NCBI GenBank assembly: GCA_947631855.1
Contig: CANRMX010000016.1
Coordinates: 1-42,776 of the forward strand
DNA: 42,776 bases
Direction of reading: 5' to 3'
Source of the DNA: an uncultured Clostridia bacterium
GTDB lineage: Bacteria > Bacillota > Clostridia > Oscillospirales > Acutalibacteraceae
Part shown: positions 1,007-40,372 of the stretch, piece by piece
How the letters are laid out: each line of letters opens with the position of its first letter
Numbering within the stretch: the stretch's first letter is position 1
Position numbers and translations under genes: made by a program
Notes under the pieces: generated by a model
Database searches by the model: none
Told to the model about the DNA's origin: nothing
What the model saw: only the letters and a program-made list of their open reading frames with translations

Positions 1007-1924
1007 ATGAAAACCATCAATATCGGCGGCACAGGCGTATATGGCTCGGCCGTGGCAGTGGGGTGTATGCGCATCGCCGGGATGGGCGCGGAGAATCTTT
1101 CCCGGTATATCCACACCGCGCTGGAATACGGCGTCAATTTCTTTGACCACGCCGACATCTACGGCGGTGGCATGAGCGAGACGATCTTCGGGCAGGTGCT
1201 GGCTGCCGAGCCCGGCCTGCGGGAGAAGCTGGTGCTGCAGAGCAAGTGCGGCATCGGCAAGGGGATGTACGACTTCTCCAAGGAGCACATTTTGGAGAGC
1301 GTGGACGGCATCCTGCGCCGCCTGCACACCGATCATCTGGATTTCCTGCTGCTCCACCGCCCGGACGCCCTGATGGAGCCGGAGGAGGTGGGCGAGGCTT
1401 TCGACGCTTTGGAGGCCGCCGGAAAGGTGCTGCATTTCGGCGTGAGCAATTTCAGCACCCGGCAGCTGCGGCTGCTCCAGTCCGGCGTGCGGCAGAAGCT
1501 GTGCGTCAACCAGATGCAGTTCGGGCTCAAGTGCACCGGCATGATCGACCACGCCCTCAGCGCCAACACGGAATTCCCCCACGCCGCCGACCGGGACGGC
1601 GAGGTGCTGGATTACTGCCGGCTGGAGGGGATCACCCTGCAGACCTGGTCGCCGTTCCAGTACGGCTTCTTTGAGGGGCCCTTTATCGACAATGAAAACT
1701 TCCCCGAGCTCAACGCCTGCCTGGCGCAGATGGCCGAGAAATACGGGGTGACCAAGTCCGGCATTGCGGCCGCGTGGATCCTGCGCCACCCGGCGAAGAT
1801 GCAGGTGATCGCCGGGACGACCAATGCCCAGAGGCTGGGCGATATTGCCGTCGGTGCGGATATCCAGCTTTCCCGTGCGGATTGGTACGCGCTGTACCTG
1901 TCGGCAGGAAATCAGCTGCCGTAA
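1007..1924 (+). CDS. Aldo/keto reductase (YdhF-like)
   Basis: This 305-residue NADPH-type aldo/keto reductase is predicted to reduce carbonyl substrates in the cytosol; the substrate cannot be told. The catalytic tetrad is visible as Asp47 and Tyr52 (FFDHADIYGGG), Lys80 (LQSKCG) and His117 (LLLHRPD). The barrel continues through GVSNFSTRQL and LQTWSPFQYG to the cofactor region VIAGTTNAQRL. Among AKRs the pattern FFDHADIYGG and the overall length fit the E. coli YdhF group. The start is ATG 1007 after AAAGGATGAGAAAAGC. The last 27 codons and stop recur as a detached, mainly synonymously diverged copy at 1974-2055. Confidence 0.93.
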   Translation: MKTINIGGTGVYGSAVAVGCMRIAGMGAENLSRYIHTALEYGVNFFDHADIYGGGMSETIFGQVLAAEPGLREKLVLQSKCGIGKGMYDFSKEHILESVDGILRRLHTDHLDFLLLHRPDALMEPEEVGEAFDALEAAGKVLHFGVSNFSTRQLRLLQSGVRQKLCVNQMQFGLKCTGMIDHALSANTEFPHAADRDGEVLDYCRLEGITLQTWSPFQYGFFEGPFIDNENFPELNACLAQMAEKYGVTKSGIAAAWILRHPAKMQVIAGTTNAQRLGDIAVGADIQLSRADWYALYLSAGNQLP

Positions 1925-1939
1925 GCATTATCTTTTTTT

Positions 1940-1964
1940 GCTCCCTCCCCGTTGGGGAGGGAGC
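1940..1964. repeat. Perfect 25-nt palindromic element between two copies of the AKR 3' end
   Basis: Arms GCTCCCTCCCC and GGGGAGGGAGC (11 bp, perfect) with a GTT loop. A run of seven T lies 5' of the hairpin on the plus strand. That is the wrong side for a terminator on the plus strand, and on the minus strand it becomes an A-run. The same T-run-then-palindrome layout recurs in the array after mgtE. Confidence 0.9.
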
Positions 1965-1973
1965 GGCTTTGAG

Positions 1974-2055
1974 GGATATCGCCGGCGCGGATATCGCGCT
2001 TTCCCGGGCGGATTGGTATGCGCTGAACCTGTCGGCAGGGAATCAATTGCCGTAA
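1974..2055 (+). pseudogene. Detached copy of the aldo/keto reductase 3' end
   Basis: These 82 nt, including a stop codon, align with the last 85 nt of the gene at 1007-1924 (native 1840-1924). They would encode DIAGADIALSRADWYALN followed by LSAGNQLP and a stop. By hand, seven codons differ synonymously, two change an amino acid and one codon is missing. There is no upstream start, ribosome-binding site or remainder of the gene, so this is a stranded 3' end rather than a gene. It ends 44 nt before the SdpI-family start. Confidence 0.9.
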
Positions 2056-2099
2056 CCAGCGTATTCCCGCCGGAAGGCGCTTTGGAAAGAGAGGAAACC

Positions 2100-2492
2100 A
2101 TGGGCTTTTGGGTCTTTATGCTGTTGGTGGCGCTGCTGATGCCGTGCACCATGATCGGCTTTGGCCGTGTGTTTGCGAAGGGCGGGCCCAAGCAGATCAA
2201 CAGCCTCTACGGCTACCGCACCAAGCGCTCTATGCAAAACCGGGAGACTTGGGCATTCGCCCACCGGTATTTTGGCAGGCTGTGGCGGATCGGCGGCTGG
2301 GTGACCGCGCCGCTGTCTGTGCTCCCCATGCTGTGGGCGCTGGGCAGGGACGTGGAGACCGTGGCCTATGTGGGGCTGGCCGTTGTGATGGTGCAGCTCA
2401 TCCCCTTGCTTCTGCCGATGTTCGCTACCGAGCGGGCGCTGCGGCGGACATTCGATAAAAACGGAAAGAGGCGCACCGGCCCGGCGCGGTGA
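2100..2492 (+). CDS. SdpI/YhfL-family membrane protein
   Basis: This 130-residue integral membrane protein carries the SdpI-family signature: YGYRTKRSMQNRETWAFA followed by HRYFGRLW at about residues 38-63, a motif placed between helices. Hydrophobic segments lie at about 4-22, 68-85 and 89-108. In Bacillus subtilis SdpI is an immunity/signalling protein against the SDP toxin, but most family members in Clostridia have no known partner, and no toxin gene is adjacent here. The ATG at 2100 follows AGAGAGGAAACC. Transcription ends at the bidirectional terminator shared with the convergent VanZ-family gene. Confidence 0.85.
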   Translation: MGFWVFMLLVALLMPCTMIGFGRVFAKGGPKQINSLYGYRTKRSMQNRETWAFAHRYFGRLWRIGGWVTAPLSVLPMLWALGRDVETVAYVGLAVVMVQLIPLLLPMFATERALRRTFDKNGKRRTGPAR

Positions 2493-2521
2493 ATACCCCT
2501 GCGCCAGTCTAATGACATTCA

Positions 2522-2559
2522 AAAAAAGCATTCCTCCCGGTTGGGCGGAATGCTTTTTT
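2522..2559. terminator. Bidirectional terminator between the SdpI and VanZ genes
   Basis: A 13-bp stem AAAAAAGCATTCC/GGAATGCTTTTTT has a GC-rich inner extension. The A-run and T-run on either side allow it to act on both strands. It sits between the convergent genes ending at 2492 and 2573. Confidence 0.9.
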
Positions 2560-2572
2560 CTGTCAGCCCGCG

Positions 2573-3133
2573 CTATGGACGGAGCCTTTGCCCGATCTTT
2601 GGGACCAGCGCCCGGAGGGCCGTCCCGATCCCCACGCCTATGGCAGCGCCCAGGAAATTGAGGAAAAGATCGTCCACATCGAAGCTGCGCCCCGCGAAAG
2701 GCTGAAGCACCTCCACGCAGAGGATCACGCCCAGGGCCAGCAGCAGGGCCTGCCAGGGCTTGCGCGCCCAGAGAAGCAGGGTCAGCAGGCCGAAGGGGAA
2801 AAACAGCGTCAGATTGGAGAGCCACATGGTCCAGCCCCAGGAGCCGGTGGTGTACGTGCCCAGCAGCATTTCCAGCAGGCGGGAGCGGAACGAAAAATCC
2901 GGGGCAGACAGGGTGAGCTCAAAGGGGGAGAAGGTCACGGCAAGCAGCGCGGCGCAGTACAGCGCAAAGCACAGCAGCAGCGCCTCCCGCAGCAGGCCGG
3001 TCCAGCGGAGCCTTTTCCTTTTGATGAGCAGCCACCGCACCGCCCCATAGACCGGCAAGGTCAGCGCCAAAAGCCCGCCAAGCAGCGGGTTATCGTGCAG
3101 AAAGTCCAGCGCGTTTGCAACGATCGCGGCCAT
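2573..3133 (-). CDS. VanZ-like family membrane protein
   Basis: This is a 186-residue polytopic membrane protein. The VanZ-like pattern is clear in the second half: NLTLFFPFGLLTLLLW, then the conserved acidic/aromatic block VEVLQPFAGRSFDVDDLFLN and a Gly-rich last helix. At least four hydrophobic segments are visible. VanZ of the vanA cluster gives low-level teicoplanin resistance, but chromosomal homologues in Firmicutes are common, and no van genes are present here. The start is supported by GGAGGG seven nt upstream and by a promoter at 3154-3182. Confidence 0.88.
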   Translation of the reverse strand: MAAIVANALDFLHDNPLLGGLLALTLPVYGAVRWLLIKRKRLRWTGLLREALLLCFALYCAALLAVTFSPFELTLSAPDFSFRSRLLEMLLGTYTTGSWGWTMWLSNLTLFFPFGLLTLLLWARKPWQALLLALGVILCVEVLQPFAGRSFDVDDLFLNFLGAAIGVGIGTALRALVPKIGQRLRP

Positions 3134-3153
3134 ACGATCCCTCCTTTTTCTCG

Positions 3154-3182
3154 ATTATAGTGCGCGGCCGTGGAGAAATCAA
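3154..3182 (-). promoter_or_regulatory. Promoter of the VanZ-family gene
   Basis: On the minus strand TTGATT, a 17-nt spacer and TATAAT lie about 20 nt before the start codon at 3133. Confidence 0.8.
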
Positions 3183-3215
3183 GGCGGGCGGCGGAATCGT
3201 AAGGAAGGTTTAAGA

Positions 3216-3241
3216 AAAGCCCCCAAAAAACGGGGGGCTTT
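3216..3241 (-). terminator. Terminator of the pth-mfd-lipoprotein unit
   Basis: On the minus strand AAAGCCCCC and GGGGGCTTT pair around a CGTTTTTT loop, followed by TCTTAAA. It lies about 45 nt after the lipoprotein stop. Confidence 0.8.
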
Positions 3242-3286
3242 CTGCTGTTCTGTTGTTTAGCGGTAACGGGATGTCCCGCCGGGCGA

Positions 3287-4432
3287 TCACTCGTTGCCGG
3301 ACTCGGAGCTGACCGTGCTGGCGGTGCTGGAGGTGCTGGAGGTGTCCTCAGCGGCGGAGGAGACCGTGCCGTTGCGGTTGCCGTCGTCCACCAGCTTGGA
3401 GATCTTGATCCGGTTCATGGCCTTCTCGTTCCATTCGATGCCGGACACAGACGCGCTCTGCTCCTTGACGTAGGCTTCAAAATCCTTGCCCTTGTACCCG
3501 TACAGCAGATCGAACGCCTGATCCTCGTCGGCCACATACTCGTCGTAGTATTCCCGCACGGGCAGCTTGCGGATCACATAATAGTAGTTTTCGGAGCTGT
3601 CGGCCACCACGGCTTCGTTCTCATCGGCGTCGGCCAGAGCGTCGGAGAAGACGGTGCCCATGTTGTCGGTCAGGATCGTCACGGGAGAAACGTAGGTGCT
3701 TTCCGGCTCCTCCTCCTCGGAGAAGAGATTGGCGTAGCGCTGGGCGGCTTCCTCGGTGGTGAGGACGCCTGCATTGATCTGCTTGGCATACTGCTCCAGC
3801 TGATCCACCCGCATCTGCTTGTCGTTTTCGCCTAAATCAACGGTAGCGCCTTCCTCGTCGGTGCGGGTCATCACCGCGTAGAAATATTCGTAGCGGGAAT
3901 AGTTCTCGGTGAAGTAATCCTCCAATTCGCCCTCCGCCAGGGCCTGCGCGCCGCCCTCGCCATAGAGGGCCTGCATCAGCTTGTCGCCCAGCACTGCATT
4001 GCGGGCGTAGGAGGTCTTTAAGGAATCTTCGGAAACGCCGATCTCTTCAAACATGGTGCGGTAGATGCTCCAGGCGTATTCGGTGAGATCGTTCACGTTG
4101 GCCTCGTCTTCCTCGCTCAGCGTGATCCCCAGGGCGTTCAGCTGCTCCTGATAATAGCAATAGGTCTGGATGGACTGCTTGGCCTGCTCCCGAATCCACT
4201 CCTCGGCGGGCTTGCCCTCGATGGTGGATTTGAGCACCTCCTGGTCGCTGTTCACCATGGAGGCGGCCCGGGCATAGGCGGTGTTGAGGAAATAGATGTA
4301 GGTGCCGATGGAGATGGTCTCGTTGCCGTACTTGGCGGACCAGGTATTGTTTTCGCTGTAGCAGCCCGCGAAGCCGAGGCAGAGGGCTGCGGCCAGCAGC
4401 AGGGCCAGTGCGGATTTGAGATACTTTTTCAT
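3287..4432 (-). CDS. PrsA/SurA-like foldase lipoprotein
   Basis: This 381-residue secreted lipoprotein has a basic N-terminus and hydrophobic h-region, with a lipobox ending FAGC; lipidation is predicted on Cys24. The rest is helical and acidic, like the SurA/PrsA N-terminal chaperone fold. A region at about 180-310 could be a degenerate parvulin domain, but I cannot identify active-site residues, so isomerase activity is not supported. The last 35 residues are a Ser/Thr-rich low-complexity tail. PrsA-like proteins help exported proteins fold outside the membrane. The gene follows mfd, a common neighbourhood in Clostridia, but has its own promoter (4481-4509) and a terminator (3216-3241). Confidence 0.8.
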   Translation of the reverse strand: MKKYLKSALALLLAAALCLGFAGCYSENNTWSAKYGNETISIGTYIYFLNTAYARAASMVNSDQEVLKSTIEGKPAEEWIREQAKQSIQTYCYYQEQLNALGITLSEEDEANVNDLTEYAWSIYRTMFEEIGVSEDSLKTSYARNAVLGDKLMQALYGEGGAQALAEGELEDYFTENYSRYEYFYAVMTRTDEEGATVDLGENDKQMRVDQLEQYAKQINAGVLTTEEAAQRYANLFSEEEEPESTYVSPVTILTDNMGTVFSDALADADENEAVVADSSENYYYVIRKLPVREYYDEYVADEDQAFDLLYGYKGKDFEAYVKEQSASVSGIEWNEKAMNRIKISKLVDDGNRNGTVSSAAEDTSSTSSTASTVSSESGNE

Positions 4433-4480
4433 GTTCGATCATGCCTTTCCAATTCTAGTGGATTCAAACGTACGGCAAAT

Positions 4481-4509
4481 ATTATACTCCTTTTTCCGGG
4501 ATTTGTCTA
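4481..4509 (-). promoter_or_regulatory. Promoter of the foldase-like lipoprotein gene
   Basis: On the minus strand TAGACA, a 17-nt spacer and TATAAT lie in the 105-nt gap after mfd. The lipoprotein can therefore be transcribed independently of mfd. Confidence 0.8.
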
Positions 4510-4537
4510 CCGGTATTCGCGGAAATTCACCAAAACT

Positions 4538-13406: not shown

Positions 13407-14111
13407 ATGAACGAGCGCCTGGATAAAATCCTGGCGTCCCAGGGGCTGGGCAGCCGCAAAGAGGCGGCCCGGATGCTCCGGGAGGGCCGGGTGACGGTGG
13501 ACGGCCAAGTGGTGCGGGATGCCGCCTTGAAGGCCGATCCCGACGGCTGCGTGATCGCGGTGGACGGCCAGCGGCTGATCTTCCGCAAATATCTCTACAT
13601 CCTGATGAACAAGCCCGCAGGGGTGCTTTCCGCCACGGAGGACAGCCGTCAGAGGACGGTGCTGGATCTGCTGCCGGAGGAACTGAACCGCCGCGGGCTG
13701 TTTCCGGCGGGACGGCTGGACAAGGACACCACGGGGCTGCTGATCATCACGGACGACGGGGATTTTGCCCATCGGATGCTTTCGCCCAGAGCCCATGTGG
13801 TGAAGCGCTACGCGGCCCGCACCCAGCGGTCCATCACCGATGAGGACATAGCGGCTTTCGCAGCGGGCGTGCAGTCGGGCGGCGACCGCTTTGCTCCGGC
13901 GCGGCTGTGGGCAGGGGAGGAGGATGGGCTGGCCTTTGTAGAAGTGACGGAGGGCAAATATCACCAGGTGAAGCGGATGTTCGAGGCCACCGGCAATCGG
14001 GTCCTGCAACTCACCCGGGTGCAGATCGGCGGGCTGGCGCTGCCGGAGGATCTGGCGCCGGGACAGGTGCGGGTATTGGAGCAAAATGAGGCTGCCCGGG
14101 TGTTTCTGTAG
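13407..14111 (+). CDS. rsuA: Pseudouridine synthase, RsuA family
   Basis: This 234-residue rRNA pseudouridine synthase has an N-terminal S4 RNA-binding domain (about 2-50, RLDKILASQGLGSRKEAARM). The catalytic domain contains GRLDKDTTGLL; Asp105 is the expected nucleophile. Conserved YILMNKPAGVLSAT and the C-terminal GKYHQVKRMF also fit. The RsuA-like length points to modification of 16S rRNA U516 rather than the 23S RluB target, but this is inference. ATG 13407 follows AGGAGGG; a longer open frame overlapping DUF4830 is rejected. No T-tailed terminator is seen downstream. Confidence 0.93.
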   Translation: MNERLDKILASQGLGSRKEAARMLREGRVTVDGQVVRDAALKADPDGCVIAVDGQRLIFRKYLYILMNKPAGVLSATEDSRQRTVLDLLPEELNRRGLFPAGRLDKDTTGLLIITDDGDFAHRMLSPRAHVVKRYAARTQRSITDEDIAAFAAGVQSGGDRFAPARLWAGEEDGLAFVEVTEGKYHQVKRMFEATGNRVLQLTRVQIGGLALPEDLAPGQVRVLEQNEAARVFL

Positions 14112-14215
14112 AAATTTGCACAAAAACAACCATGGGGTTTTGGATTTTATAGAAATCCCATAAACGGAGGGAAAAAAGTTTGGTCAAATAAAGACTACCA
14201 TAAATCTGAGATATC

Positions 14216-14224
14216 TGCTATACT
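14216..14224 (+). promoter_or_regulatory. Extended -10 promoter of the ABC ATPase
   Basis: TGC followed by TATACT. The -35 at 17 nt (TACCAT) is poor, so this depends on the extended -10 element. Transcription would start about 60 nt before the ATG at 14290. Confidence 0.6.
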
Positions 14225-14289
14225 TATGCCATACCAAAACGGTGTGCGCCGAAAGAGCGGCGCAACTCTATCAACAGGAGGTCATTTCT

Positions 14290-15421: not shown

Positions 15422-15457
15422 GGGGCCGTGCCTTTTGGCACGGCCCTACTTTTTTTT
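15422..15457 (+). terminator. Rho-independent terminator of the ABC ATPase gene
   Basis: A perfect 10-bp stem GGGCCGTGCC/GGCACGGCCC with a TTTT loop is followed, after TAC, by eight T. The T-run is also the 5' arm of the first unit of the adjacent hairpin repeat. Confidence 0.93.
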
Positions 15458-15661
15458 CGGAGAAAAAGTAGGCAAAAAGAACTCTGCATGGCTTGGGGCA
15501 GATTGCGTGCGGCCTTGGGATGTCTGTGGTTAGCACACAGTTTATTCCGCGACCCACTTTTTCTTTCGGAGAAAAAGTGGGCAAAAAGAGCTTCCCGTGG
15601 CTTGAGGCTGATTGCGTGCGGCCTTGGGTTGTCTGCGGTCAGTACATAGTCAATCCCGCGA
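15445..15661. repeat. Tandem pair of about 108-bp hairpin-bearing repeats
   Basis: Unit 1 is 15445-15552 and unit 2 is 15553-15661, directly abutting. Each opens with a 10-bp hairpin. Unit 1 pairs CCTACTTTTT with AAAAAGTAGG (15445-15454/15463-15472). Unit 2 pairs CCCACTTTTT with AAAAAGTGGG (15553-15562/15572-15581). The T-A pair has become C-G through changes in both arms. GATTGCGTGCGGCCTTGGG is shared by both units, and each ends in CCGCGA. No coding potential is seen. The 15403-15783 gap otherwise holds only the terminator and the XRE promoter/operator. Confidence 0.85.
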
Positions 15662-22641: not shown

Positions 22642-23976
22642 ATGGCCGAATCGATCGAAATGTTGTTGGAAGAAAAGAAATATTCGGAAGCCGCCGCCCG
22701 GGTCAAAGAGATGAATCCCGCGGACGCGGCGGTTTTGCTGGGCGAATTGGAAGCGACGAAGGTGCCCATCCTGTTCCGGCTGCTGCCCAAGGAGATGGCC
22801 AGCGAAGTCTTCGCCTACATGGAGTCCGAGGCCCAGGAGACGCTGATCCAGGCGTTCAGCGACCGGGAGCTGGGCGAAGTGATGGAGCAGCTGTACCTGG
22901 ACGACGCGGTGGACATGATCGAGGAAATGCCCGCCAATGTGGTCAAGCGCATCCTGCGCCACGTGGATGCGGACACCCGGACGATGATCAATCAGGTGCT
23001 CAACTACCCGGAGGACAGCGCCGGCAGCATCATGACCATCGAATATGTGGACCTCAAGGCCGGCATGACGGTGGAGCAGGCTTTTGAGCGAATCCGGGCC
23101 ACGGGTGTGGAGAAGGAGACCATCTACACCTGCTATGTCACCGATTCCCAGCGGAAGCTGGAGGGCATCGTCACGGTGAAGGACCTGCTGCTGGCCCCCA
23201 AGGACGAGATCATCCGCAACATCATGGAGACCAACATCAAATTTGTGTACACCTATACCGACCAGGAGGAAACAGCCTCCATGCTCAGCCACTACGACTT
23301 CCTGGCCATGCCCGTGGTGGACGCCGAGGAGCGGCTGGTGGGCATCGTCACGGTGGACGACGCCATCGACGTTCTGCAGGAGGAGGCCACGGAGGACATC
23401 GAAAAGATGGCGGCTATTTCGCCTTCGGATAAGCCCTACATGAAGACGGGCGTGTTTGCCACCTGGAAGAAGCGGGTGCCCTGGCTGTTGATCCTGATGG
23501 TGTCCGCCACCTTCACCAGCGCCATCATCGGCAGCTATGAGAGCGCCCTGGCGGCCAGCGTGGTGCTGACGAATTTCATTCCCATGCTCATGGATACCGG
23601 CGGCAATTCCGGCAGCCAGTCGTCCATCACCATCATCCGCAGCCTGTCTTTGGGCGAGATCCGCTTCGCCGATGTGCCCCGGATCCTCCTCAAAGAGTGC
23701 GCGGTGGCCCTGCTATGCGGCGGCACGCTGGCGGTGGGGGCTTTCATCAAGCTGATGCTCATTGACCGTGTGACCATCCCGGTGGCCCTGGTGGTCAGCG
23801 TGACCCTGGCGGTGGTGGTGCTGGTGGCAAACATCGTGGGCGCCACGCTGCCTATGCTGGCCAAGCGCCTGGGGTTTGACCCCACCGTCATGGCCAGCCC
23901 CTTCATCACGACCATCGTGGATGCCGTGGCCCTGATGCTCTACTTCAATATTGCGAAGCTGCTTTTGGGGATTTAA
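22642..23976 (+). CDS. mgtE: Magnesium transporter MgtE
   Basis: This 444-residue Mg2+ channel/transporter has a cytoplasmic N domain of helical repeats (about 1-125, e.g. DAAVLLGELEATKVPILFRL), two CBS domains (about 130-190 and 195-255) that sense Mg2+, a connecting helix and five membrane segments (about 285-444). The pore region has FIPMLMDTGGNSGSQSS and the last helix VDAVALMLYFNIAKLL. ATG 22642 follows GAGGAGGG. It has its own promoter and a long structured leader, fitting Mg2+ control. Its last 18 codons recur, synonymously changed, at 24084-24140, and a palindrome array follows the stop. Confidence 0.96.
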   Translation: MAESIEMLLEEKKYSEAAARVKEMNPADAAVLLGELEATKVPILFRLLPKEMASEVFAYMESEAQETLIQAFSDRELGEVMEQLYLDDAVDMIEEMPANVVKRILRHVDADTRTMINQVLNYPEDSAGSIMTIEYVDLKAGMTVEQAFERIRATGVEKETIYTCYVTDSQRKLEGIVTVKDLLLAPKDEIIRNIMETNIKFVYTYTDQEETASMLSHYDFLAMPVVDAEERLVGIVTVDDAIDVLQEEATEDIEKMAAISPSDKPYMKTGVFATWKKRVPWLLILMVSATFTSAIIGSYESALAASVVLTNFIPMLMDTGGNSGSQSSITIIRSLSLGEIRFADVPRILLKECAVALLCGGTLAVGAFIKLMLIDRVTIPVALVVSVTLAVVVLVANIVGATLPMLAKRLGFDPTVMASPFITTIVDAVALMLYFNIAKLLLGI

Positions 23977-24000: not shown

Positions 24001-24452
24001 CTGCGGGGATTTAAAGCTCATCTGGCAGCGGGGCAGATATTTTGTTGTTCGCCCCCCTACGGGGGCGAACAACGGATAGATGAGATGCAGTCGCCCTGAT
24101 GCTCTACTTCAATATTGCGAAGTTACTTTTGGGTATTTGAAATCCAATTGACAACGAAGGAGTTTTTGTTATTCACCCCCTAAGGGGGGTGAATAACGGG
24201 ACGAAGCTACTGCTGGGGATTGGAAATCTAACTGGCAACGAAGAAGATTTTTTGTTGTTCGCCCCCTGCGGGGGCGAACAACGGGAAGAAGCCGTTGCTG
24301 GGGATTTGAAATCCAATTGACAACGAAGAAGATTTTTTATTCACCCCCTAAGGGGGCAAATAACGGGAAGAAGCCGCTGCTGGGGATTTGAGGCCCGACT
24401 GGCAGCGAAGAAGATTTTTGCTATTCACCCCTTATGAGGGCAATCAACGGAA
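24001..24452. repeat. Palindrome array of about five units derived from the mgtE 3' end
   Basis: The core period is 82-85 bp. Each unit holds a relic of the mgtE end (CTGCTGGGGATTTGA-like), a conserved linker (ATCCAATTGACAACGAAGAA), a T-run and a palindrome. Palindromes lie at 24044-24073, 24168-24197, 24254-24282, about 24337-24363 and about 24422-24447. The first three have perfect 13-bp arms and 3-4-nt loops; the last two are decayed. Arms are of two types, GTTGTTCGCCCCC and GTTATTCACCCCC, each with the matching partner arm. The first unit is longer and more diverged. Nothing else lies in 23977-24503. Confidence 0.92.
24084..24140 (+). pseudogene. Detached copy of the mgtE 3' end
   Basis: These 57 nt aligned with native 23920-23976 would encode DAVALMLYFNIAKLLLGI and a stop, the same 18 residues as MgtE. 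Four codons differ (GCC/GCA, GTG/GTC, CTG/TTA, GGG/GGT), all synonymous, and the stop is TGA instead of TAA. No start codon or upstream coding sequence is attached. Confidence 0.92.
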
Positions 24453-24503
24453 AAAGCTGAGCGTCAAACGCGCAGAAGCAAAATCACAAAGGAGGGGATT
24501 CCC

Positions 24504-25089: not shown

Positions 25090-25333
25090 ATCGTACTTCC
25101 GCCCGACCGTAATGAGCGTCTCAATAACCTGCTACGTGTGAAGCAGGTGGGTGCCCTCCCAGGCGGTTCTCGCTCCCTTCGTCCAACGCCGGTCTGGCCG
25201 GCGCCGGGAGGTCTGCAGTCCGCGCCCGGAGGCGGGCTCCCTGAGTTATGAGTGTAGGGTTATTTGTGCACAGTCCGCGAATCGGGCAGAAAGTTTCCGA
25301 ATGTTTCGGGATGCGGCCGAAAACCGCCGACGA

Positions 25334-27835: not shown

Positions 27836-29050
27836 ATGGCCCGCAGGACCGGCAAAAAGCGAGAATTTGAGGAGCTTTCCAGCTACTCCTCCTCAAAAGA
27901 ATATCGAAAGCACCGCCGCCGGGGCCGGGTGCGCAAGGTGATCCTGGCCGTGGGGGTGGCGATCTTCCTGCTGCTGGGGATCGTGGGCGCGGTGCTGATC
28001 CACATCTCCACCACCTATGTTTCCAAGCTGTCCACCACTAGCATCACCAAGGACCCCGAGGCGCTGGGCATCAATACCATGGCCGGCACGCTGGTGCAGG
28101 ACGACAGCATCAAGAATATCGCCCTGTTCGGGCTGGATTCCCGCACTGATGTCTTCGAGGGCCTCAGCGACGTGACCATGATCCTGACGGTGGACAACCG
28201 CCACGACAAGGTGAAGCTCACCTCCATCATGCGGGATTCGGAGGTGCACATCGAGGGCCAGAGCTACAGCGGCTATGTGGACTGGTACAGCAAGATCAAC
28301 GCCTCCTATATGTTGGGCGGGCCGCAGCTGGCCATCCGCACCCTCAACCAGAACTTCGGGCTGGATATCACCGATTACGTCACCCTGAATTTCGCCAAGC
28401 TGGCCGCCCTGATCGATGCCTTCGGCGGGGTGGATTTGGAAGTGACCGGCGAGGAAGTGGTGCAGATCAACCAGAACCTGTTCGACCTGATGCGCGAGGT
28501 GGAGGAGCAGACCGAGCTGGATGAGGAAAACGGGGACAACTCGGTGCACGAGTACGCCGACATCGACTGGGGCGATTTCGTCTACCGGGACGATGGGGAG
28601 ATCAGCTTTTACGACAACATCTATGCGGACGGCGTGTACCATCTCACCGGCGACCAGGCCGTGGCCTATGGGCGCATCCGGCGCATCGGCGACGATTTCG
28701 AGCGGGTGCAGCGCCAGCAGAAGGTGCTGCGCAAGATGATGGAAAAGATCGCGGATATCAGCGTGGTGGAGTATCCCAATATCCTCCGGCAGCTGATGCC
28801 CCTTTGCGAGACTTCGCTGGAGCTGGACGACGTGCTGGGTATGGCGCCCATTGTGACCGTGGGCTTCACGGTGGAGACCATCAGCGTGCCCGATTATCAA
28901 TACGAGCTGGATCTCCACGATTCCGCCACCTACAATCTGGTCTATGACGTGGAGCAGGCGTCCCACCGGATCAACTGCTTCATTTATGAGGATATTTCCC
29001 CTTACTGGGACGAGTACGGATACGATACGGGCGTTTCGGCGGCTGAGTGA
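27836..29050 (+). CDS. LytR-CpsA-Psr (LCP) family cell-wall ligase 1
   Basis: This 404-residue protein has a basic cytoplasmic N-terminus (RRTGKKRE, KHRRRGRVRK), a signal-anchor helix at about 35-57 and an extracellular LCP domain from about 90. Family landmarks are IKNIALFGLDSR, MILTVDNRHDKVKLTSIMRD, YVTLNFAKLAALIDAFGGVD, YHLTGDQAVAYGRIR and RVQRQQKVL. LCP enzymes attach undecaprenyl-linked anionic polymers to peptidoglycan. ATG 27836 follows AAAGAGGTGG. It is followed after 43 nt by a close paralogue. Confidence 0.94.
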   Translation: MARRTGKKREFEELSSYSSSKEYRKHRRRGRVRKVILAVGVAIFLLLGIVGAVLIHISTTYVSKLSTTSITKDPEALGINTMAGTLVQDDSIKNIALFGLDSRTDVFEGLSDVTMILTVDNRHDKVKLTSIMRDSEVHIEGQSYSGYVDWYSKINASYMLGGPQLAIRTLNQNFGLDITDYVTLNFAKLAALIDAFGGVDLEVTGEEVVQINQNLFDLMREVEEQTELDEENGDNSVHEYADIDWGDFVYRDDGEISFYDNIYADGVYHLTGDQAVAYGRIRRIGDDFERVQRQQKVLRKMMEKIADISVVEYPNILRQLMPLCETSLELDDVLGMAPIVTVGFTVETISVPDYQYELDLHDSATYNLVYDVEQASHRINCFIYEDISPYWDEYGYDTGVSAAE

Positions 29051-29093: not shown

Positions 29094-30668
29094 CTGGGCA
29101 GCAGACAGGAAAGCCGTCACGCGCGCGAAGTGCGCAGAAGACGGGAGGCCCGACGGGCCGACCGGGAACGGGCGCTTTTGGAAGAAGAATCCTACTGGGA
29201 TACCGGGGAGCTGGAGCCCACTGACGCGCCGCCCCGGCGTCCGCTGCGGGATCGGTACACCTATGAGGAGCCCCGGCGCGGCAGCCGGTATGCAGAGCAC
29301 CGCCGGGAGTACGAACCCCGGGCGCGGCAGGAGGACGCCCGCCGCAGGAAGAAGCGGGGAAGGGGCCGGCTTGCGGTCTGCCTGATCCTGCTGCTGGTGC
29401 TGGTGGCGGGCGGCGTGTACTACGTGTTTTTCTATATGCTGGGCGGGCTGACCCTGCGGAACATCACCCATGACCACAGCCTATTGGGGATCAATTCCGC
29501 GGTGCTCTCCGACAGCAGCATCAAAAATATCGCCCTGTTCGGGCTGGATTCCCGGGAGGATGACGGGGTGGGCCGCTCCGATGCGCTGATGGTGCTGACG
29601 GTGGACAACAAGCACGACAAGATCAAGCTGACTTCCATCCTCCGGGACAGCAATGTTTCCATCCGGCGCACAGATGAGGACGGAAGCATCTATTATATGG
29701 ATGACAAGATCACCCACGCCTATGCCTACGGCGGGCCGGAAACCGCCATCAACACCCTCAACCGGAACTTCAATCTGGACATCGAGGACTATGTGACGGT
29801 GAATTTCGCCCAGATGGCCAAGATCGTGGACGCCCTGGGCGGGGTGGATATGGAGATCAGCCCCGAGGAGATCGTGGAGATCAACAAGAATCTGCGGGAC
29901 CTCTGGTGGGAGATCGAACTGGAAAAGATGGAGGACGCCGAAAACGGCGTCTATGGGCAGATCGAGTACGCCAAGATCGCCGACAGCGACTACTTCCGGA
30001 ACGCCTACGGCGAGGCGGAGGAAGAGGACCCCTCGGTCTTTACCGGCGGGGTGTACCGGCTGAACGGCAATCAGGCGGTGGCATACGCTCGCATCCGGCA
30101 CATCGATGGGGACGATGCCCGGGCCGGTCGGCAGCAGAAGGTGCTCAAGGCCCTGCTGGACGGCCTCAAGAACAAGAGCAAGCTGGAGTACCCGGACCTG
30201 ATCCACACCCTGATGCCCCTTTGCGAGACTTCTCTGGATTTTGGGGATATTATGGATATGTCGCCCATCGTGCTGACGGATTTCACCTTCGAGACCCTGT
30301 CCATCCCCAACGAGGAGGAAGCGGATTTCGGCTTCAACAGTCAGGGCAGCTGGGTGTATGTGTACGATCTGGAAGCGGCGGCCAACCGGCTGGGCCAGTT
30401 CATCTACGAGGAGGACGCCGTGGCCGTGACGCTGGGCAGCGACGTCACCGATGTGGTGGCCGGCGCGCTGGCGGGCAATTATGACGAGAATACCGACGAA
30501 GGCTACGATCCGAGTTACGACGAAAATACTGACCAGGGGTATGACGAAAGTTACGACCCGGGCTACGACGAAAACAGCGACCAGGGCTATGATGACGGGT
30601 ATGACGCAGGTAACGACGAAAGCTATGGCCCAGAGGATATAGCTTACGACGAAGGGTATACCGAATAA
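29094..30668 (+). CDS. LytR-CpsA-Psr (LCP) family cell-wall ligase 2, probable CTG start
   Basis: This LCP paralogue of about 524 residues has an Arg/Glu-rich cytoplasmic N-terminus, a membrane helix at about residues 96-116 and an LCP domain (IKNIALFGLDSRED, LMVLTVDNKHDKIKLTSILR, YVTVNFAQMAKIVDALGGVD, YRLNGNQAVAYARIRHID, RQQKVLKALL). The last 60 residues are a Tyr/Asp repeat tail. No ATG exists in frame after the stop at 29085-29087. CTG 29094 lies six nt after GAGGTGA, the only good ribosome-binding site; the alternative GTG 29130 has none. I place the start at CTG. Confidence 0.88.
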   Translation: MGSRQESRHAREVRRRREARRADRERALLEEESYWDTGELEPTDAPPRRPLRDRYTYEEPRRGSRYAEHRREYEPRARQEDARRRKKRGRGRLAVCLILLLVLVAGGVYYVFFYMLGGLTLRNITHDHSLLGINSAVLSDSSIKNIALFGLDSREDDGVGRSDALMVLTVDNKHDKIKLTSILRDSNVSIRRTDEDGSIYYMDDKITHAYAYGGPETAINTLNRNFNLDIEDYVTVNFAQMAKIVDALGGVDMEISPEEIVEINKNLRDLWWEIELEKMEDAENGVYGQIEYAKIADSDYFRNAYGEAEEEDPSVFTGGVYRLNGNQAVAYARIRHIDGDDARAGRQQKVLKALLDGLKNKSKLEYPDLIHTLMPLCETSLDFGDIMDMSPIVLTDFTFETLSIPNEEEADFGFNSQGSWVYVYDLEAAANRLGQFIYEEDAVAVTLGSDVTDVVAGALAGNYDENTDEGYDPSYDENTDQGYDESYDPGYDENSDQGYDDGYDAGNDESYGPEDIAYDEGYTE

Positions 30669-31620: not shown

Positions 31621-32012
31621 TCCCGTAGATCGGGAGCGGAGGTAGCCAATTTATCCCGCCAAGTTCCGCTTGGGCCGCCTGATTGGGTTTACTGCGCATT
31701 TCCACGCGCGACTTGGCCCCACGGCCAAGCCGAGATAGATTATCGTGCAAAGCACAGCGCGTGCCGCACGCTTTAGATTCTGGCTTGTTTCCACGCGCGA
31801 CTTGGCCCCCACGGCCCCGTGGAATAAACAAGCCCTTTGGCTGAGATCCTCCAGAGATCCCGCCAAAGGGCAAGCAGTCGGGGCCCGGAAAGGCAAATCA
31901 TTCACAGGTCCTTCTGAAAAGAGCGCTGCCTTTTCCGGGCCCTGAAGGTTTCGCTTTTTCTGGGCAAGCAAACGCCGCCCGGCTGCGTAGTCCTAGTGTG
32001 GCCCGCGGGCGG
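31621..32012. repeat. Gene-free region made of strong stem-loops and an internal repeat
   Basis: I see no gene here. A motif containing CCACGCGCGACTTGGCCCC occurs twice, about 89 nt apart. The second occurrence sits within a long hairpin (GGCTTGTTT...CCACG with CGTGG...AAACAAGCC, about 31781-31834). GCCCTTTGGC/GCCAAAGGGC pairs at 31832-31841/31862-31871. A 15-bp near-perfect stem (GGGCCCGGAAAGGCA with TGCCTTTTCCGGGCCC) is at 31881-31895/31927-31942. CCGCCCG/CGGGCGG pairs at 31975-31981/32006-32012. It may be a structured RNA or a pile-up of palindromic repeats. Confidence 0.75.
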
Positions 32013-34761: not shown

Positions 34762-34770
34762 AAATTCACC

Positions 34771-35370: not shown

Positions 35371-35401
35371 AAGGTTGTTCCTCCTAGGATTTGATGGCCT
35401 T

Positions 35402-35430
35402 ATTGTAGCGGAAAAATTGATGTTTGTCAA
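35402..35430 (-). promoter_or_regulatory. Promoter of the DUF2975-XRE operon
   Basis: On the minus strand a perfect TTGACA, a 17-nt spacer and TACAAT lie about 32 nt before the start. It sits only 29 bp downstream of the stop of the upstream co-oriented gene. Confidence 0.88.
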
Positions 35431-35458
35431 CTGTTTTTTAATGATTGTCGTAAATTTC

Positions 35459-36268: not shown

Positions 36269-36303
36269 GGCAAATCACCTCCGATGGCAGTGTAACCCAC
36301 CCC

Positions 36304-36380
36304 GCCGCGAACAGCGCCGCCTCCGGCGGCCGCCCGCGTTCCGCGTGCGCGCGGCCCAAGGCCCCGCGGCTGTTCGCGGC
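36304..36380. repeat. Nested palindromic element downstream of the methyltransferase
   Basis: Outer 12-bp perfect arms GCCGCGAACAGC (36304-36315) and GCTGTTCGCGGC (36369-36380) enclose a perfect 6-bp hairpin GCCGCC/GGCGGC with a TCC loop (36316-36330) and further GC-rich pairing. There is no T-run, so it is not a typical terminator. Confidence 0.85.
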
Positions 36381-36389
36381 AGGCCGGGC

Positions 36390-37160
36390 TCACGGCTTTC
36401 GCCCCAGATAGAGATCGATGGTGTCGTAGATGTTGATCCCGCCGCCCACCCCGTCAATGGCATCCCGCATGGCCGTCTCAAAGGCGTCCTTTTGCTGGGG
36501 CGGCAGCGCCCGGTGGTCCGAATAGGTGTTGAGGAGATGGATGTAGTCCTCCGTGCCCAGCCGCCGCACCCGCTTGTAAAGCCGACAGGTGACGTGCGCA
36601 AACCCCTGGGCCTCCAGCTCCCGAACCATGGGCAGACAGTCCTCCGGGCCGAATTCCTTCGGCTCCCTGCCCGAGGGCCGCAAGGCGTCGTACACCCGGC
36701 GGCTGGCCACGTTGCTGGGGTCGTCCATGCGGTTGGGGAAGGGGTGATTCCAAAACAGCGCGATGCAGCCGCCCGGCTTCAGCCCCCGCATGATCTTCGG
36801 GTAGGCCGCCTCCTTGGGCAGCCAGTGAAACGCCGTGGCGGAATAGACGAGGTCGCAGCTTTCCGCCTCCAGCGGGTAGGCCATAAAATCCTGATTGACC
36901 GCCGAAAAGCCGGGGTACGCGCGGAATTTCTCAGCAGCGTACGCGCTGAGGTTTTCGCCCAGTTCGATCCCGGTGATTTTGCACCCCGCCAGCAGGAAGG
37001 GCAGCGTGGCCTGCCCGGTGCCCACGCCGATCTCCAGCAGCCGGCTGTCCGCCGTCAGGCCCGCATAGGCCCGCACGTCGGCAAACAGCGCCTCCGGGTA
37101 GCCGGGCCGGTATCGGTCGTAGTTCACCGCATCTTCGTCAAAGCTCTTCCTCAGTTCCAT
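36390..37160 (-). CDS. Class I SAM-dependent methyltransferase
   Basis: This 256-residue methyltransferase_11-type enzyme has FDEDAVNYDRYRPGYPEALF at the N-terminus and SAM motif I LLEIGVGTGQAT (41-52). GIELGENL follows as motif II, then SATAFHWLP and MRGLKPGGCIALF. The substrate is unknown; homologues near sugar or small-molecule genes methylate metabolites. Start 37160 follows GGCGAGGTG. That ribosome-binding site lies directly after the detached uxaC 3' end (37177-37305), so the sequence before this gene belonged to the original uxaC downstream region. Confidence 0.9.
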   Translation of the reverse strand: MELRKSFDEDAVNYDRYRPGYPEALFADVRAYAGLTADSRLLEIGVGTGQATLPFLLAGCKITGIELGENLSAYAAEKFRAYPGFSAVNQDFMAYPLEAESCDLVYSATAFHWLPKEAAYPKIMRGLKPGGCIALFWNHPFPNRMDDPSNVASRRVYDALRPSGREPKEFGPEDCLPMVRELEAQGFAHVTCRLYKRVRRLGTEDYIHLLNTYSDHRALPPQQKDAFETAMRDAIDGVGGGINIYDTIDLYLGRKP

Positions 37161-37176
37161 CGAAAGCACCTCGCCT

Positions 37177-37305
37177 TTATAATCCAAAATACTTGGCCGC
37201 GTTCCCGAAACAGATGTCTTCCACCATGCCGCCCACCAGCGCAAAGTCCCCGGGAATCTCTCCCCGTTCCATCCGCCCGCCCAGCAGGTTGCACAGCACC
37301 CGCCG
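37177..37305 (-). pseudogene. Detached copy of the uxaC 3' end
   Basis: These 129 nt (43 codons with stop) align without gaps with native uxaC 37346-37474 and are about 91% identical by hand. They would encode a tail ending [14 protein letters not shown]. Seven sense codons differ synonymously, four change a residue (R/K, K/E, S/G, W/R), and the stop is TAA instead of TAG. There is no upstream coding sequence. Confidence 0.92.
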
Positions 37306-37319
37306 TTCTCGTTCCGGGC

Positions 37320-37340
37320 TTTTCCGCCATCGGCGGAAAA
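37320..37340. repeat. Perfect 21-nt palindrome between the two uxaC 3' ends
   Basis: Arms TTTTCCGCC (37320-37328) and GGCGGAAAA (37332-37340) with an ATC loop sit in a 40-nt spacer that separates the attached uxaC end from the detached copy. Confidence 0.9.
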
Positions 37341-37345
37341 CGGCT

Positions 37346-38746
37346 CTATAATCCAAAATACCTGGCCGCGTTTCCGAAGCAGATGTCTTTCACCATGCTG
37401 CCCACCAGCGCAAAGTCTCCGGGAATTTCTCCCCGTTCCATCCACCCGCCCAGCAGATTGCAGAGTACCCGCCGGAAATACTCGTGTCTGGCGTAGGAGA
37501 GGAAGCTCCGGGAGTCGGTGAGCATCCCGATAAACCCGCTGAGCAGCCCGGTGTTGGCCAGAGCTTTCAGCATCTTTTCCATGCCGTCTCTGTGGTCGGA
37601 GAACCACCATGGCGTGCCCAGCTGCATCTTCTGGGGGAAGCATCCCTCCTGGAAGCACCCCAGGACGGCGGCCAGCTTGTCGTCGTCGCCGCCGTTGAGG
37701 GAGTAGACAACGGTTTTGGGTAATTCATCGGTCCGATCCAGCGCGTCAAAGAGGGCGGCCACAGAGGCAGCGGAGATGCCGTCGCCCACCGAATCGAACC
37801 CGGCGTCGGCGCCGGCGATGGAGTACATCCGACTGTTTACGTTGCGCAGCACGCCGAAGTGCAGCTGCATGACAAAGCCCATCTTCCGGTAGATCTTGCC
37901 CAGTGAGCGCATCAGCTGGGACTGGTACGCATTCAGCGCGTCTGGCGAAAGGGCCTCGCCCGCCCGGGCCCTGCGGAAAGCGGCCTCGGCTTCTTCCCGG
38001 GTGCCCCGGGCGAAATCGGGGGCCTGCAAACTCTGGTCGGCGATCAGGCAGCCGTTTTCTTTGAAGAATTCTGCCCGCTCCAGCAGGGCGCTTTCCAGCG
38101 CCGCCAGGGTGTCGATGCTCCGCCCGGTGACAGCTTCCATGCGGTCGATCCACGGGAGGAAGGCGGCGGTCTCCGGGTGCAGGGCGTTTTCCGGGCGGAA
38201 AGCGGGCAGCACCCGCACGGGGAAACTCTCATCCTCCCGGAGGAGCTGATGGTACCGCAGATCGTCCGCAGGGTCGTCGGTGGTGCACAGGGCCTTCACG
38301 CCGCTGCGCAGGATGAGCCCCCGGGCGGAGAAGCCCGGCTGGGCCAGCACCCGGTTGCACTGTTCCCAAATCGCCGGCGCGGAGGCGGTATTGAGCAGCT
38401 GGGAGACCCCGAAATACCGCTTCAATTCCAGATGGGTCCAGGCATAGAGGGGATTGCCCACACTCTTTTCCACCGTCCCGGCCCAGTAGAGGAACTTCTC
38501 ATAGGGGTCGCCATCGCCGGTGACAAATTTCTCCGGCACGCCGCAGGCCCGCATCAGCCGCCACTTGTAGTGGTCGCCGGAAAGCCACACGTCGGTGATG
38601 TGGGGGAAGGACTTGTCCTCGTAGATCTCCTTGGGGGATAGGTGGCAGTGGAAGTCGAAGATCGGCTGGGACTGGGCAAATTCGTGGTAGAGCCGCCGGG
38701 CCGCGTCCCCTTGCAGCAGATAGTCGTCGTGGATGTAGTCCGCCAT
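37346..38746 (-). CDS. uxaC: Glucuronate isomerase
   Basis: This 466-residue uronate isomerase converts D-glucuronate to D-fructuronate and D-galacturonate to D-tagaturonate, the first step of uronic-acid use. Metal-site histidines His33 and His35 are in [17 protein letters not shown]. Other family blocks are [63 protein letters not shown] and the C-terminal [21 protein letters not shown]. Start 38746 follows CAGGAGG, with a promoter at 38787-38815. No other uronate gene (uxaA/B, uxuA/B, kdgK) is in the window. The 3' end is duplicated downstream. Confidence 0.97.
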
Positions 38747-38786
38747 GAAATTGGCCTCCTGTCATGCAGATGTTTTTTCCGATTTC

Positions 38787-38815
38787 ATTCTACCATAGTC
38801 GCGGGAAAAAAACAA
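38787..38815 (-). promoter_or_regulatory. Promoter of uxaC
   Basis: On the minus strand TTGTTT, a 17-nt spacer and TAGAAT preceded by TGG. It is divergent from and 13 bp away from the promoter at 38829-38857. Confidence 0.75.
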
Positions 38816-38828
38816 GCCCAAACCGGGG

Positions 38829-38857
38829 TTGTGCGGCGAGAAAAAAGGGAGTACACT
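38829..38857 (+). promoter_or_regulatory. Promoter of the AadA-like gene
   Basis: TTGTGC, a 17-nt spacer and TACACT, about 22 nt before the start codon. Confidence 0.7.
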
Positions 38858-38879
38858 ATCTGTGAAGGAGGGGAGCGCC

Positions 38880-39662
38880 ATGCCCTATGAAGAATTGCTC
38901 CGGGATTTCTGCGCCAAGAGCCGGGCGGTCTTTGGAGAGAACCTGGTGGGGGTTTATCTCCACGGCTCCGCAGCGATGGGCTGCTTTAACCCAAAGAAAA
39001 GCGATCTTGATCTGCTCCTGGTGGTGGAGCGCCCGCCCACGCGGGAGGAGAAGCTGGCGTTCTTGGGGGTGACGCTTCGCGCCAACGCCCAGGCTCCTGC
39101 CAAGGGACTGGAGCTGAGCGTAGTCCGCCGGGCGGTGTGCAGCCCCTTTGTGTATCCCACGCCCTACGAATTCCACTTTTCCAACGGCCACCGCGCCTGG
39201 GCGGAAAAGGACCCGCAGGACTATGTGGACAACATGCAGGGCACCGATAAAGACCTGGCGGCGCACTGTACCGTGATCAATCACTATGGCATCGCCCTGT
39301 ACGGCCCGCCGGTGCAAGAGGTCTTTGGCCCGGTGCCGCCCGCCGCCTATCTGGACAGCCTGTGGTACGACGTGCAAAACGCCCAGCAGGATATTCTGGA
39401 AGACCCGGTGTACGTCACGCTGAACCTGTGCCGGGTGCTGGCCTTTCTGCAGGACGGCGCAGTGCTGTCGAAAAAATCCGGCGGGGAATGGGGGCTGCGG
39501 GAATTGCCCGGGGAATACGGGCCCCTGATCGTCTCGGCGCTGGAAAGCTACGGCGGCGAGGGCGAGATGGAATCGGACCCGGCGGAACGGGTGCGATTCG
39601 CCAGAGAGATGCTGGCGCGCATCCAGCGGGGCAAAATCGCCCTTTGCGGGCCGGACTCTTGA
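38880..39662 (+). CDS. AadA/ANT(9)-like nucleotidyltransferase (DUF4111)
   Basis: This 260-residue protein has an N-terminal nucleotidyltransferase core, GVYLHGSAAMGCFNPKKSDL, with Gly29-Ser30 and the metal pair Asp42/Asp44. The C-terminal helical DUF4111 domain has YVTLNLCRVLAFLQDGAVLS and KKSGGEWGLRELP. This is the architecture of aminoglycoside 3''/9-adenylyltransferases, and residues used for spectinomycin/streptomycin adenylylation may be present. Chromosomal homologues often have no proven resistance role, so I do not claim one. ATG 38880 follows GAAGGAGGGG. Its TGA stop is inside the next gene's -35 box. Confidence 0.85.
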   Translation: MPYEELLRDFCAKSRAVFGENLVGVYLHGSAAMGCFNPKKSDLDLLLVVERPPTREEKLAFLGVTLRANAQAPAKGLELSVVRRAVCSPFVYPTPYEFHFSNGHRAWAEKDPQDYVDNMQGTDKDLAAHCTVINHYGIALYGPPVQEVFGPVPPAAYLDSLWYDVQNAQQDILEDPVYVTLNLCRVLAFLQDGAVLSKKSGGEWGLRELPGEYGPLIVSALESYGGEGEMESDPAERVRFAREMLARIQRGKIALCGPDS

Positions 39663-39687
39663 AAAACCCGCCGGCCTCTGGTATACT
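39659..39687 (+). promoter_or_regulatory. Promoter of the small membrane protein at 39714
   Basis: TTGAAA contains the upstream TGA stop; after a 17-nt spacer comes TATACT preceded by TGG. Confidence 0.83.
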
Positions 39688-39713
39688 ACAAGAAAAAAGA
39701 GGGAGTGTTGACC

Positions 39714-40055
39714 GTGCCCGGAGGATTGATTGGGACCCTGATCTGGCTGTTCTGCCTGTTGTTTGTGGGAGGCGTGTGCCTCGGCATGGGGATCAAATGG
39801 AGCAAGGGGCGGGAGCCCGCCGGGCCGTGGGCCAAGGGCAAAGCCCCCAAGCGCACCGATTTCACCGATGTGGACGCGTACAACCGCGCCATGGGCCGGC
39901 AGTTGAAGCTCTATTCCATCCCGTTTTTCCTGGCGGCGGTGTGCTTTTTCTGGCGTCCTCTGGTGGCGGGCATCCTGGCGGCGGTGACGTGCATCCCGGG
40001 GTTGATCTTGCTGCTAGTGCGCTTCGGGAAGATTTACCAGAAATACATCAAATAG
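39714..40055 (+). CDS. Small membrane protein (113 aa), function unknown
   Basis: One hydrophobic segment lies at about 4-27 (GLIGTLIWLFCLLFVGGVCL). A polar Lys/Asp-rich loop with RTDFTDVDAYNRAMGRQLKL follows, then two closely spaced hydrophobic stretches (about 67-95) and a basic tail FGKIYQKYIK. GTG 39714 lies 8 nt after GAGGGAG; the earlier GTG at 39705 overlaps that site. I recognise no named family. The last 104 nt and about 60 nt of downstream sequence are duplicated at 40209-40372. Confidence 0.75.
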   Translation: MPGGLIGTLIWLFCLLFVGGVCLGMGIKWSKGREPAGPWAKGKAPKRTDFTDVDAYNRAMGRQLKLYSIPFFLAAVCFFWRPLVAGILAAVTCIPGLILLLVRFGKIYQKYIK

Positions 40056-40372
40056 AAAATCCCACGCCATCGATCAGTACCCAGTGAATTCCGCGATAGG
40101 AGCGCTTGTTTTCAGCGCCCACCAGTGCGCCCTCAGCGCGCGCTCCGCGAAGTGAGAACGGCGGCTCGCCGTGCCCGCCTGCGGCGGGGGATCGGCAGAG
40201 GGTTTCCCGGCGTCCTCTGGTGGCGGGCATCCTGGCGGCGGTGACGTGCATCCCGGGGTTGATCTTGCTGCTAGTGCGCTTCGGGAAGATTTATCAGAAA
40301 TACATCAAATAAATGATCCCCCGCCATCGACCAGTACCCGGTGAATTCCGCGATAGGGGCGCTTGTTTCCAG
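40056..40372. repeat. Duplicated downstream segment and palindromic spacer
   Basis: About 60 nt after each stop also match (40056-40116 and 40313-40372, roughly 85-90% by eye, sharing GTGAATTCCGCGATAGG), so the whole unit repeats with a 257-bp period. Between the copies (about 40117-40208) lie ACGGCG/CGCCGT with a GCT loop (40158-40172) and CCCGCC/GGCGGG with a TGC loop (40174-40188). No gene is visible in 40313-40428. Confidence 0.88.
40209..40312 (+). pseudogene. Detached copy of the 39714 gene's 3' end
   Basis: These 104 nt align with native 39952-40055. Only two positions differ: TAC/TAT (synonymous) and stop TAG/TAA. It is the youngest-looking of the four detached ends. There is no start codon or remainder of the gene. 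Confidence 0.93.

Follow-up and report, generated by a model that had tools for sequence, protein, structure and literature searches.

Four genes on a contig of an uncultured gut Clostridia bacterium (Acutalibacteraceae; contig CANRMX010000016.1 of assembly GCA_947631855.1, 42,776 nt, the whole of which is here called the window) are each followed by a second, slightly different copy of their own 3′ end, and doubled ends of this kind recur in the rest of the genome. The window is contig 16 of a metagenome-assembled genome (MAG; G000) that comprises 1.84 Mb in 59 contigs and is 81% complete. We tentatively interpret the doubled ends as gene ends that were displaced by recombination with diverged homologous DNA, with the far junction at a hairpin; we put the chance of this somewhat below even and prefer it modestly over plain duplication.

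The four direct repeats each span the stop codon of a called gene. They lie at 1849-1927/1980-2058 in an aldo/keto reductase gene (AKR; PF00248; offset 131), at 23920-23982/24084-24146 in mgtE (TIGR00400; offset 164), at 37172-37305/37341-37474 in uxaC (PF02614; offset 169) and at 39946-40116/40203-40373 in a gene starting at 39705 (offset 257), whose 116-aa product has no match in Pfam or NCBIfam. A preliminary description of the window had claimed a second 3′ end for four genes, and all four were found where it had placed them. The features are the following:

1849..1924, plus strand: attached 3′ end of the AKR gene (gene 1007-1924; repeat, gene call and PF00248)
1940..1964, plus strand: hairpin with an 11-bp stem and a 3-nt loop directly 5′ of the second AKR end, preceded by a T-run
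1980..2055, plus strand: detached second 3′ end of the AKR gene; the gapped match begins at about 1962
23920..23976, plus strand: attached 3′ end of mgtE (gene called at 22642-23976; repeat, gene call and TIGR00400)
24044..24073, plus strand: first hairpin between the mgtE ends, with a 13-bp stem and a 4-nt loop
24084..24140, plus strand: detached second 3′ end of mgtE, stop included
24042..24453, plus strand: five successive hairpin units behind mgtE, spaced 82-123 nt, the later ones with short gene-end remnants only
37346..37474, minus strand: attached 3′ end of uxaC (gene 37346-38746; repeat and PF02614)
37320..37340, minus strand: hairpin past the uxaC stop with a 9-bp stem and a 3-nt loop; the gapped match of the second end begins at its edge
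37177..37305, minus strand: detached second 3′ end of uxaC
39946..40055, plus strand: attached 3′ end of the 39705-40055 gene (116 aa); homology runs beyond the stop to 40116
40174..40188, plus strand: hairpin 5′ of the second end of the 39705 gene, with a 6-bp stem and a 3-nt loop
40203..40312, plus strand: detached second 3′ end of the 39705 gene; homology runs to 40373

The paired ends of the window are 83-94% identical and differ in 18 synonymous and 9 replacement codons (AKR 6:3, mgtE 4:0, uxaC 7:4, 39705 gene 1:2). An earlier count by hand, 19:6, was close and correctly described the differences as mainly synonymous, and the single codon deletion reported with it corresponds to a 3-nt deletion in the AKR copy. 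Both replacements of the 39705 gene lie where the match begins, within its first codons, and could belong to the junction. The mgtE end is doubled as described; it is not a simple pair, however, but the start of the row of five hairpin units that reaches to 24453. The outer stem bases of the first three of these units co-vary on both arms.

Across G000 a 3′ end was counted as doubled when its last 150 nt recurred no more than 600 nt downstream with a score of at least 50; genes of at least 300 nt from a codon-based gene caller were scanned in the window and in 40 further 20-kb stretches, taken as two sets of 20. Doubled 3′ ends were found at 8/632 genes in the further stretches and at 12/670 with the window included, so that about one gene in eighty has a second, slightly different tail just downstream. 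The genome-wide count suggested in the preliminary description thus makes doubled ends a recurrent class. The twelve are divided among the window (4/38) and the two sets (5/310 and 3/322), and the unusual richness of the window is presumably why doubled ends drew notice. Over the full scan the controls gave two of 665 5′ ends, one of 438 interior segments and none of 670 reversed sequences; for the first half, the window and 20 stretches, the figures were 9/348 for 3′ ends, 2/345 for 5′ ends and 0/348 for reversed sequences. The reversed controls bear out the claim that the repeats are not due to chance. The excess of 3′ over 5′ ends has a p of 0.013 with the window and of 0.11 without it (8/632 vs 2/628). 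Doubled genes beyond the window include murB, a PAP2 gene, a Band 7 gene, a family-4 uracil-DNA glycosylase, a sugar-isomerase-like gene, an HGSNAT-like gene and an aldo/keto reductase with an Fe-S domain.

The same test was applied to samples from 11 genomes of the same genus, where 3/1193 3′ ends were doubled, all of them in G006 (3/113), which is also a MAG (about 86% complete). In the remaining ten relatives none of 1080 3′ ends was doubled (0/157 in the single-contig G003, and likewise 0/157 in G028), and the G000 sample without the window differs from these ten with a p of 3e-4. Doubled 5′ ends in the relatives amounted to 2/1189, both in G022. The twelve scanned loci of G000 and the three of G006 form the set of 15 loci used below; a dipeptidase gene carrying three short tails (L038, stop 17567), which lies outside the twelve, was added by hand for the array, junction and spacer analyses, giving 16 loci, 13 of them in G000. 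The offset between the two ends is 102-439 nt at the 15 loci (120-260 nt at 12 of them), and gaps of 13-365 nt separate the ends.

The differences between attached and detached ends point to a past under selection on the protein. With the first three codons of every match omitted, the replacement-to-synonymous rate ratio, omega, is 0.126 at the 12 G000 loci (bootstrap 0.075-0.19; 50 synonymous and 22 replacement differences) and 0.121 without the window loci; under neutrality, 25-36% of changes would be expected to be synonymous. This supports the view that both ends were once functional, and agrees with the earlier suggestion that one end arrived as a functional allele. At six loci 47 differing codons were polarised by means of the relatives, with 19 synonymous and 10 replacement changes falling on the detached end, 11 and 3 on the attached end, and four left unassigned. 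The detached end thus changed more (29 vs 14, p 0.03), its ratio is far from neutral (p 5e-6 to 0.001 for neutral fractions of 0.25 to 0.36) and it does not differ in this ratio from the attached end (p 0.49). Site by site, the relatives match the attached base 383 times and the detached base 184 times at these six loci. A two-phase calculation, which is a guide only, places most of the divergence before stranding at every assumed omega tried. The detached ends are damaged: the L181 copy has a 1-nt insertion, the murB copy has lost its stop, and residues that relatives conserve are replaced in uxaC (W to R), AKR (Y to N) and murB (K to R, L to M). At one G006 locus (L213, 2583) all six differing places between the ends fall within the first 60 nt, leaving the last 81 nt identical; such a mosaic is consistent with recombination or conversion.

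The relatives are single-ended at these loci, as the check proposed in the preliminary description would require: all 81 readable ends at six loci are single (AKR 11, mgtE 19, uxaC 18, the L048 gene 10, the L040 gene 4, murB 19), with a downstream stretch that is short in some (shortest 117 nt). In murB the single end of G022, G012, G009, G019, G011 and G015 matches both G000 copies, in overlapping fashion, and the second match continues into the same next gene as in G000, which we take to be rapZ. A hairpin, in these site surveys a stem of at least 8 within 120 nt of the stop in relatives, is present near the stop in 0/18 relatives for uxaC, 0/10 for the L048 gene, 0/19 for murB and 1/11 for AKR, and in 9/19 for mgtE and 2/3 for the L040 gene. 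For murB no hairpin was recognised in G000 itself. Hairpin and second end are therefore absent together in the relatives of the uxaC and L048 genes, and almost always in those of AKR, while hairpins behind mgtE are common regardless. The empty sites that the check asks for, lacking both second end and palindrome, were accordingly found at uxaC (18/18), the L048 gene (10/10), murB (19/19) and AKR (10/11), but less regularly at mgtE and the L040 gene.

The palindrome at the junction, noticed in the window, is supported by counts over more loci. Hairpins with a stem of at least 8 are present in 8 of 12 spacers, versus 2.87 expected from length-matched regions (p 0.0008), and 10 of the 16 loci have a hairpin ahead of the second end. 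The overall hairpin density of G000 is ordinary (1.76 per intergenic kb; 1.11-3.26 in five relatives). At all ten hairpin loci the start of the second end lies close to the hairpin edge, from -3 nt (inside the hairpin) to +10 nt; this nearness has single p values of 0.02-0.19 and a combined p of 5e-4, and it depends on the aligner, since the junction test uses gapped starts and only gapped alignment extends the second ends. In a strict anchored test homology did not extend from the second end toward the hairpin at any of 15 loci, and the left edge of the second end is abrupt at 15/15, which would be compatible with an illegitimate junction. Standard terminators were rejected as an account of the palindromes: a T-run follows the first hairpin at 0/10 doubled ends and at 15/118 other genes, and precedes it at 3/10 and 5/118, respectively, counted within 250 nt of the stop in regions that were not length-matched. 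An exception is a G006 locus (L213, oriented stop 4779), where the hairpin has an A-run and a T-run.

We propose that the 3′ end of a gene, together with the sequence behind it, would recombine with diverged homologous DNA, whose source would be a different strain or a closely related species. Of the two junctions, one would be a homologous crossover within the gene and the other illegitimate, at the edge of a hairpin, landing 34-156 nt before the resident stop. The resident end would thereby be stranded downstream, giving the order body, new end, hairpin, old end, next gene. Events of this kind would persist chiefly at 3′ ends, since there they leave the gene intact. Decay of the stranded end would follow, and the unit of end and hairpin could amplify into an array. 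We infer the involvement of a donor, which of the two ends is the newcomer, and the role of the hairpin as the cause of the break. That an integrase-free process in some gut Clostridia keeps replacing the final tens of codons in ordinary genes by versions from other strains, with the incoming piece cut at a hairpin, so that the genome stores past recombination as spare ends, is a further step that we consider rather unlikely.

Several observations weigh against displacement. No donor was seen, as none of the relatives is significantly closer to the detached end at the six loci, and 8 of the 43 polarised changes were assigned by a margin of one relative. Omega is higher in G006 (0.275, from 10 and 8 differences). 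Behind the stop, 35 of 414 noncoding sites differ (0.085) versus 0.055 of replacement sites (p 0.11; eight loci), where the noncoding value is probably low because local alignment trims mismatches near the stop. Six of the 16 loci are without a recognised hairpin. Duplications clear of any gene end are numerous in G000, and several occur in G022, G019 and G024. The copies in the L038 and L181 arrays share indels at their left edges, so that the growth of these arrays was by copying of a unit already displaced. In the six arrays, detached ends compared with each other give 30:46 synonymous to replacement differences, which is near neutral, versus 56:46 for detached ends against the gene (p 0.049; the pairs are not independent); we counted this contrast for displacement, yet it belongs among the contrary evidence as well.

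The closest rival is plain local tandem duplication at hairpins, by slippage, template switching or break repair, leading to minisatellite-like arrays that start in the gene tail; we regard it as a serious if somewhat improbable explanation. Six loci, five in G000 and one in G006, are indeed head-to-tail arrays of three to five ends, and homology continues past the stop at 8/15 loci (at the other seven it ends near the stop codon). Together with the start of second ends at hairpin edges, the many purely noncoding local duplications, the noncoding divergence that does not differ significantly from replacement divergence, and the 3′ excess that is not significant without the window, these features favour duplication. 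The 3′ bias would then be due to selection, as duplications elsewhere would damage genes. Omega between the attached and the first detached end, however, is far below what one free copy allows, and synonymous sites have diverged more than the duplicated noncoding sequence (0.185 vs 0.085 at the eight loci with alignable noncoding sequence). Duplication would need repeated turnover of arrays among strains to yield the silent bias. The two-copy loci are only partly of the tandem-array kind. Part of the copying is, to judge from the left-edge indels that array copies share, ordinary tandem duplication. A snap-back template switch, which creates hairpin and duplicate in one step, is kept within this rival; it fits the L048 gene, where only the left arm of the hairpin follows the second copy, and misfits arrays with a hairpin per unit.

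Displacement must also be weighed against an assembly error, in which the metagenome assembler set the alleles of two strains in tandem. A low omega is expected of two strains' alleles, both genomes with doubled ends are MAGs while none was found in the single-contig G003 or in G028, and matches of 92-98% over 46-92 nt are shared by several pairs of contig termini. In two pairs of G000 contig termini, on the other hand, the overlap is exactly 77 nt, the pattern left by a de Bruijn assembly whose contigs were not scaffolded, which implies that each junction would need real reads of that length. The arrays of three to five ends and the damage in the detached ends likewise speak against an artefact, which we consider improbable. 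Judging from the contig-end overlaps, the assembly may hide young identical duplicates longer than about 77 nt by collapsing them. The termini that share 46-92-nt sequences belong to C1, C5, C8, C14, C17, C18 and C19; the shared sequences (in the groups C8/C17/C18/C19 and C1/C5/C14, and in C17/C19) are perhaps dispersed repeats or their ends.

The preliminary description had offered two options. One was non-autonomous mobile mini-elements whose insertion into gene tails would provide a new 3′ end; the other, recombination acting at palindromes, is the better. The functional allele, the single ends in relatives and the palindromes at the junctions are supported; the family of mobile elements is not and is the least probable of the explanations weighed here. 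Compact units (offsets of 102-439 nt at 15 loci) and relatives that lack both hairpin and second end at uxaC and the L048 gene favour it. The inserts, however, have no sequence in common, since each carries the end of its own gene, and their hairpins differ; six arrays and the noncoding duplications also tell against mobile elements. The RAYT-type transposase proposed as a partner was not found: neither G000 nor G006, incomplete MAGs in which other recombinases were not searched, has a Y1 (RAYT/IS200) transposase, which is present in 9/29 genomes of the genus, or a reverse transcriptase, which has matches in 12/29. Several relatives with no doubled ends likewise lack both enzymes. Reverse transcription of mRNA ends, which would account for an end lying at a hairpin, was rejected on the same absence of a reverse transcriptase in G000 and G006. 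Remnants of full paralogues, an origin that the preliminary description had considered, were rejected since the matches are limited to the last 34-156 nt and the 81 readable ends in relatives are single, and gene conversion between the ends would, by reasoning, not alone lower omega so far.

Other local repeats were observed as well. The window contains intergenic tandem pairs at 15441-15658 and 31651-31809, clear of any gene end. At L042 (2196-3288) an intergenic tandem array with a unit of roughly 150 nt overlaps the 3′ end of one gene by 9-27 nt. A noncoding-looking unit of about 400 nt is tandem-doubled at 88-89% in L044 (14933-15754) and L046 (14143-14973), in which a frame for a small holin-like peptide was seen by eye. 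In L038 a 51-nt interior piece (13834-13884) of the gene at 13715-14218 is repeated at 14229-14279, 11 nt past the stop, and in G022 (L083) 17 nt of a gene end are doubled, which is under the scan threshold and was not counted. Two adjacent genes of the window (27836-29050 and 29178-30668) are 63% similar in DNA and probably paralogues. Rfam matches in the window are a 6S RNA (25093-25295, minus strand) and a tRNA (82-155, minus strand).

If displacement is correct, C-terminal displacement, known from toxin genes and fungal mitochondria, would act on housekeeping genes across a bacterial genome, with a breakpoint tied to DNA hairpins. The spare ends would then be direct traces of recombination over short tracts, which is difficult to observe in uncultured bacteria. 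If they are plain duplications, a lineage in which over 1% of gene tails are doubled, versus none in ten sampled relatives, would still be a useful natural example of duplication linked to hairpins.

Open-access literature searches for displaced ends of ordinary bacterial genes returned nothing relevant; the comparison below is with other systems. MIRU and other variable-number tandem repeat (VNTR) minisatellites are tandem units at gene boundaries. The six loci with three to five ends are minisatellite-like in being head-to-tail copies of one unit; MIRU share one sequence, whereas the G000 units are gene-specific. Phage e14 replaces the 3′ end of icd and carries an integrase, unlike the inserts described here, whose gaps of 13-365 nt hold none. 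In transformation of Streptococcus pneumoniae, imported DNA can lead to tandem duplication by unequal pairing (merodiploidy), and the duplications are about 100-900 kb long and bordered by repeats, unlike the short G000 units (PMC3784515). Gene hybrids made by mobile open reading frames in fungal mitochondria also resemble the doubled ends: a C-terminal end is inserted in phase with the gene, the native end remains downstream, and synonymous differences occur, in that case from a relative (Beaudet et al., 2013, PMC3630166). The mitochondrial inserts carry an endonuclease gene, however, and the short gaps seen here encode no enzyme.

For the orphan immunity arrays of the Vibrio type VI secretion system, homology-facilitated illegitimate recombination has been proposed (PMC5361080). 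As in our proposal there is one homologous anchor and one illegitimate junction, with old material downstream and arrays formed by repetition; unlike in G000, the units are whole effector-immunity modules, and the relevant part of that paper states no link to hairpins. The nearest likeness is rhs C-terminal displacement, where an intact gene is followed by strings of dissociated tips, recombination with transferred alternatives is proposed to shunt the old end downstream, and the same layout is noted for mafB (Jackson et al., 2009, PMC2935791). The 15 loci in two genomes likewise have displaced versions of a gene's own end downstream of the intact gene. The rhs tips are non-homologous toxin ends of one gene family, whereas the ends in G000 are near-identical (83-94% in the window) and short, belong to unrelated housekeeping genes and have hairpins at their junctions.

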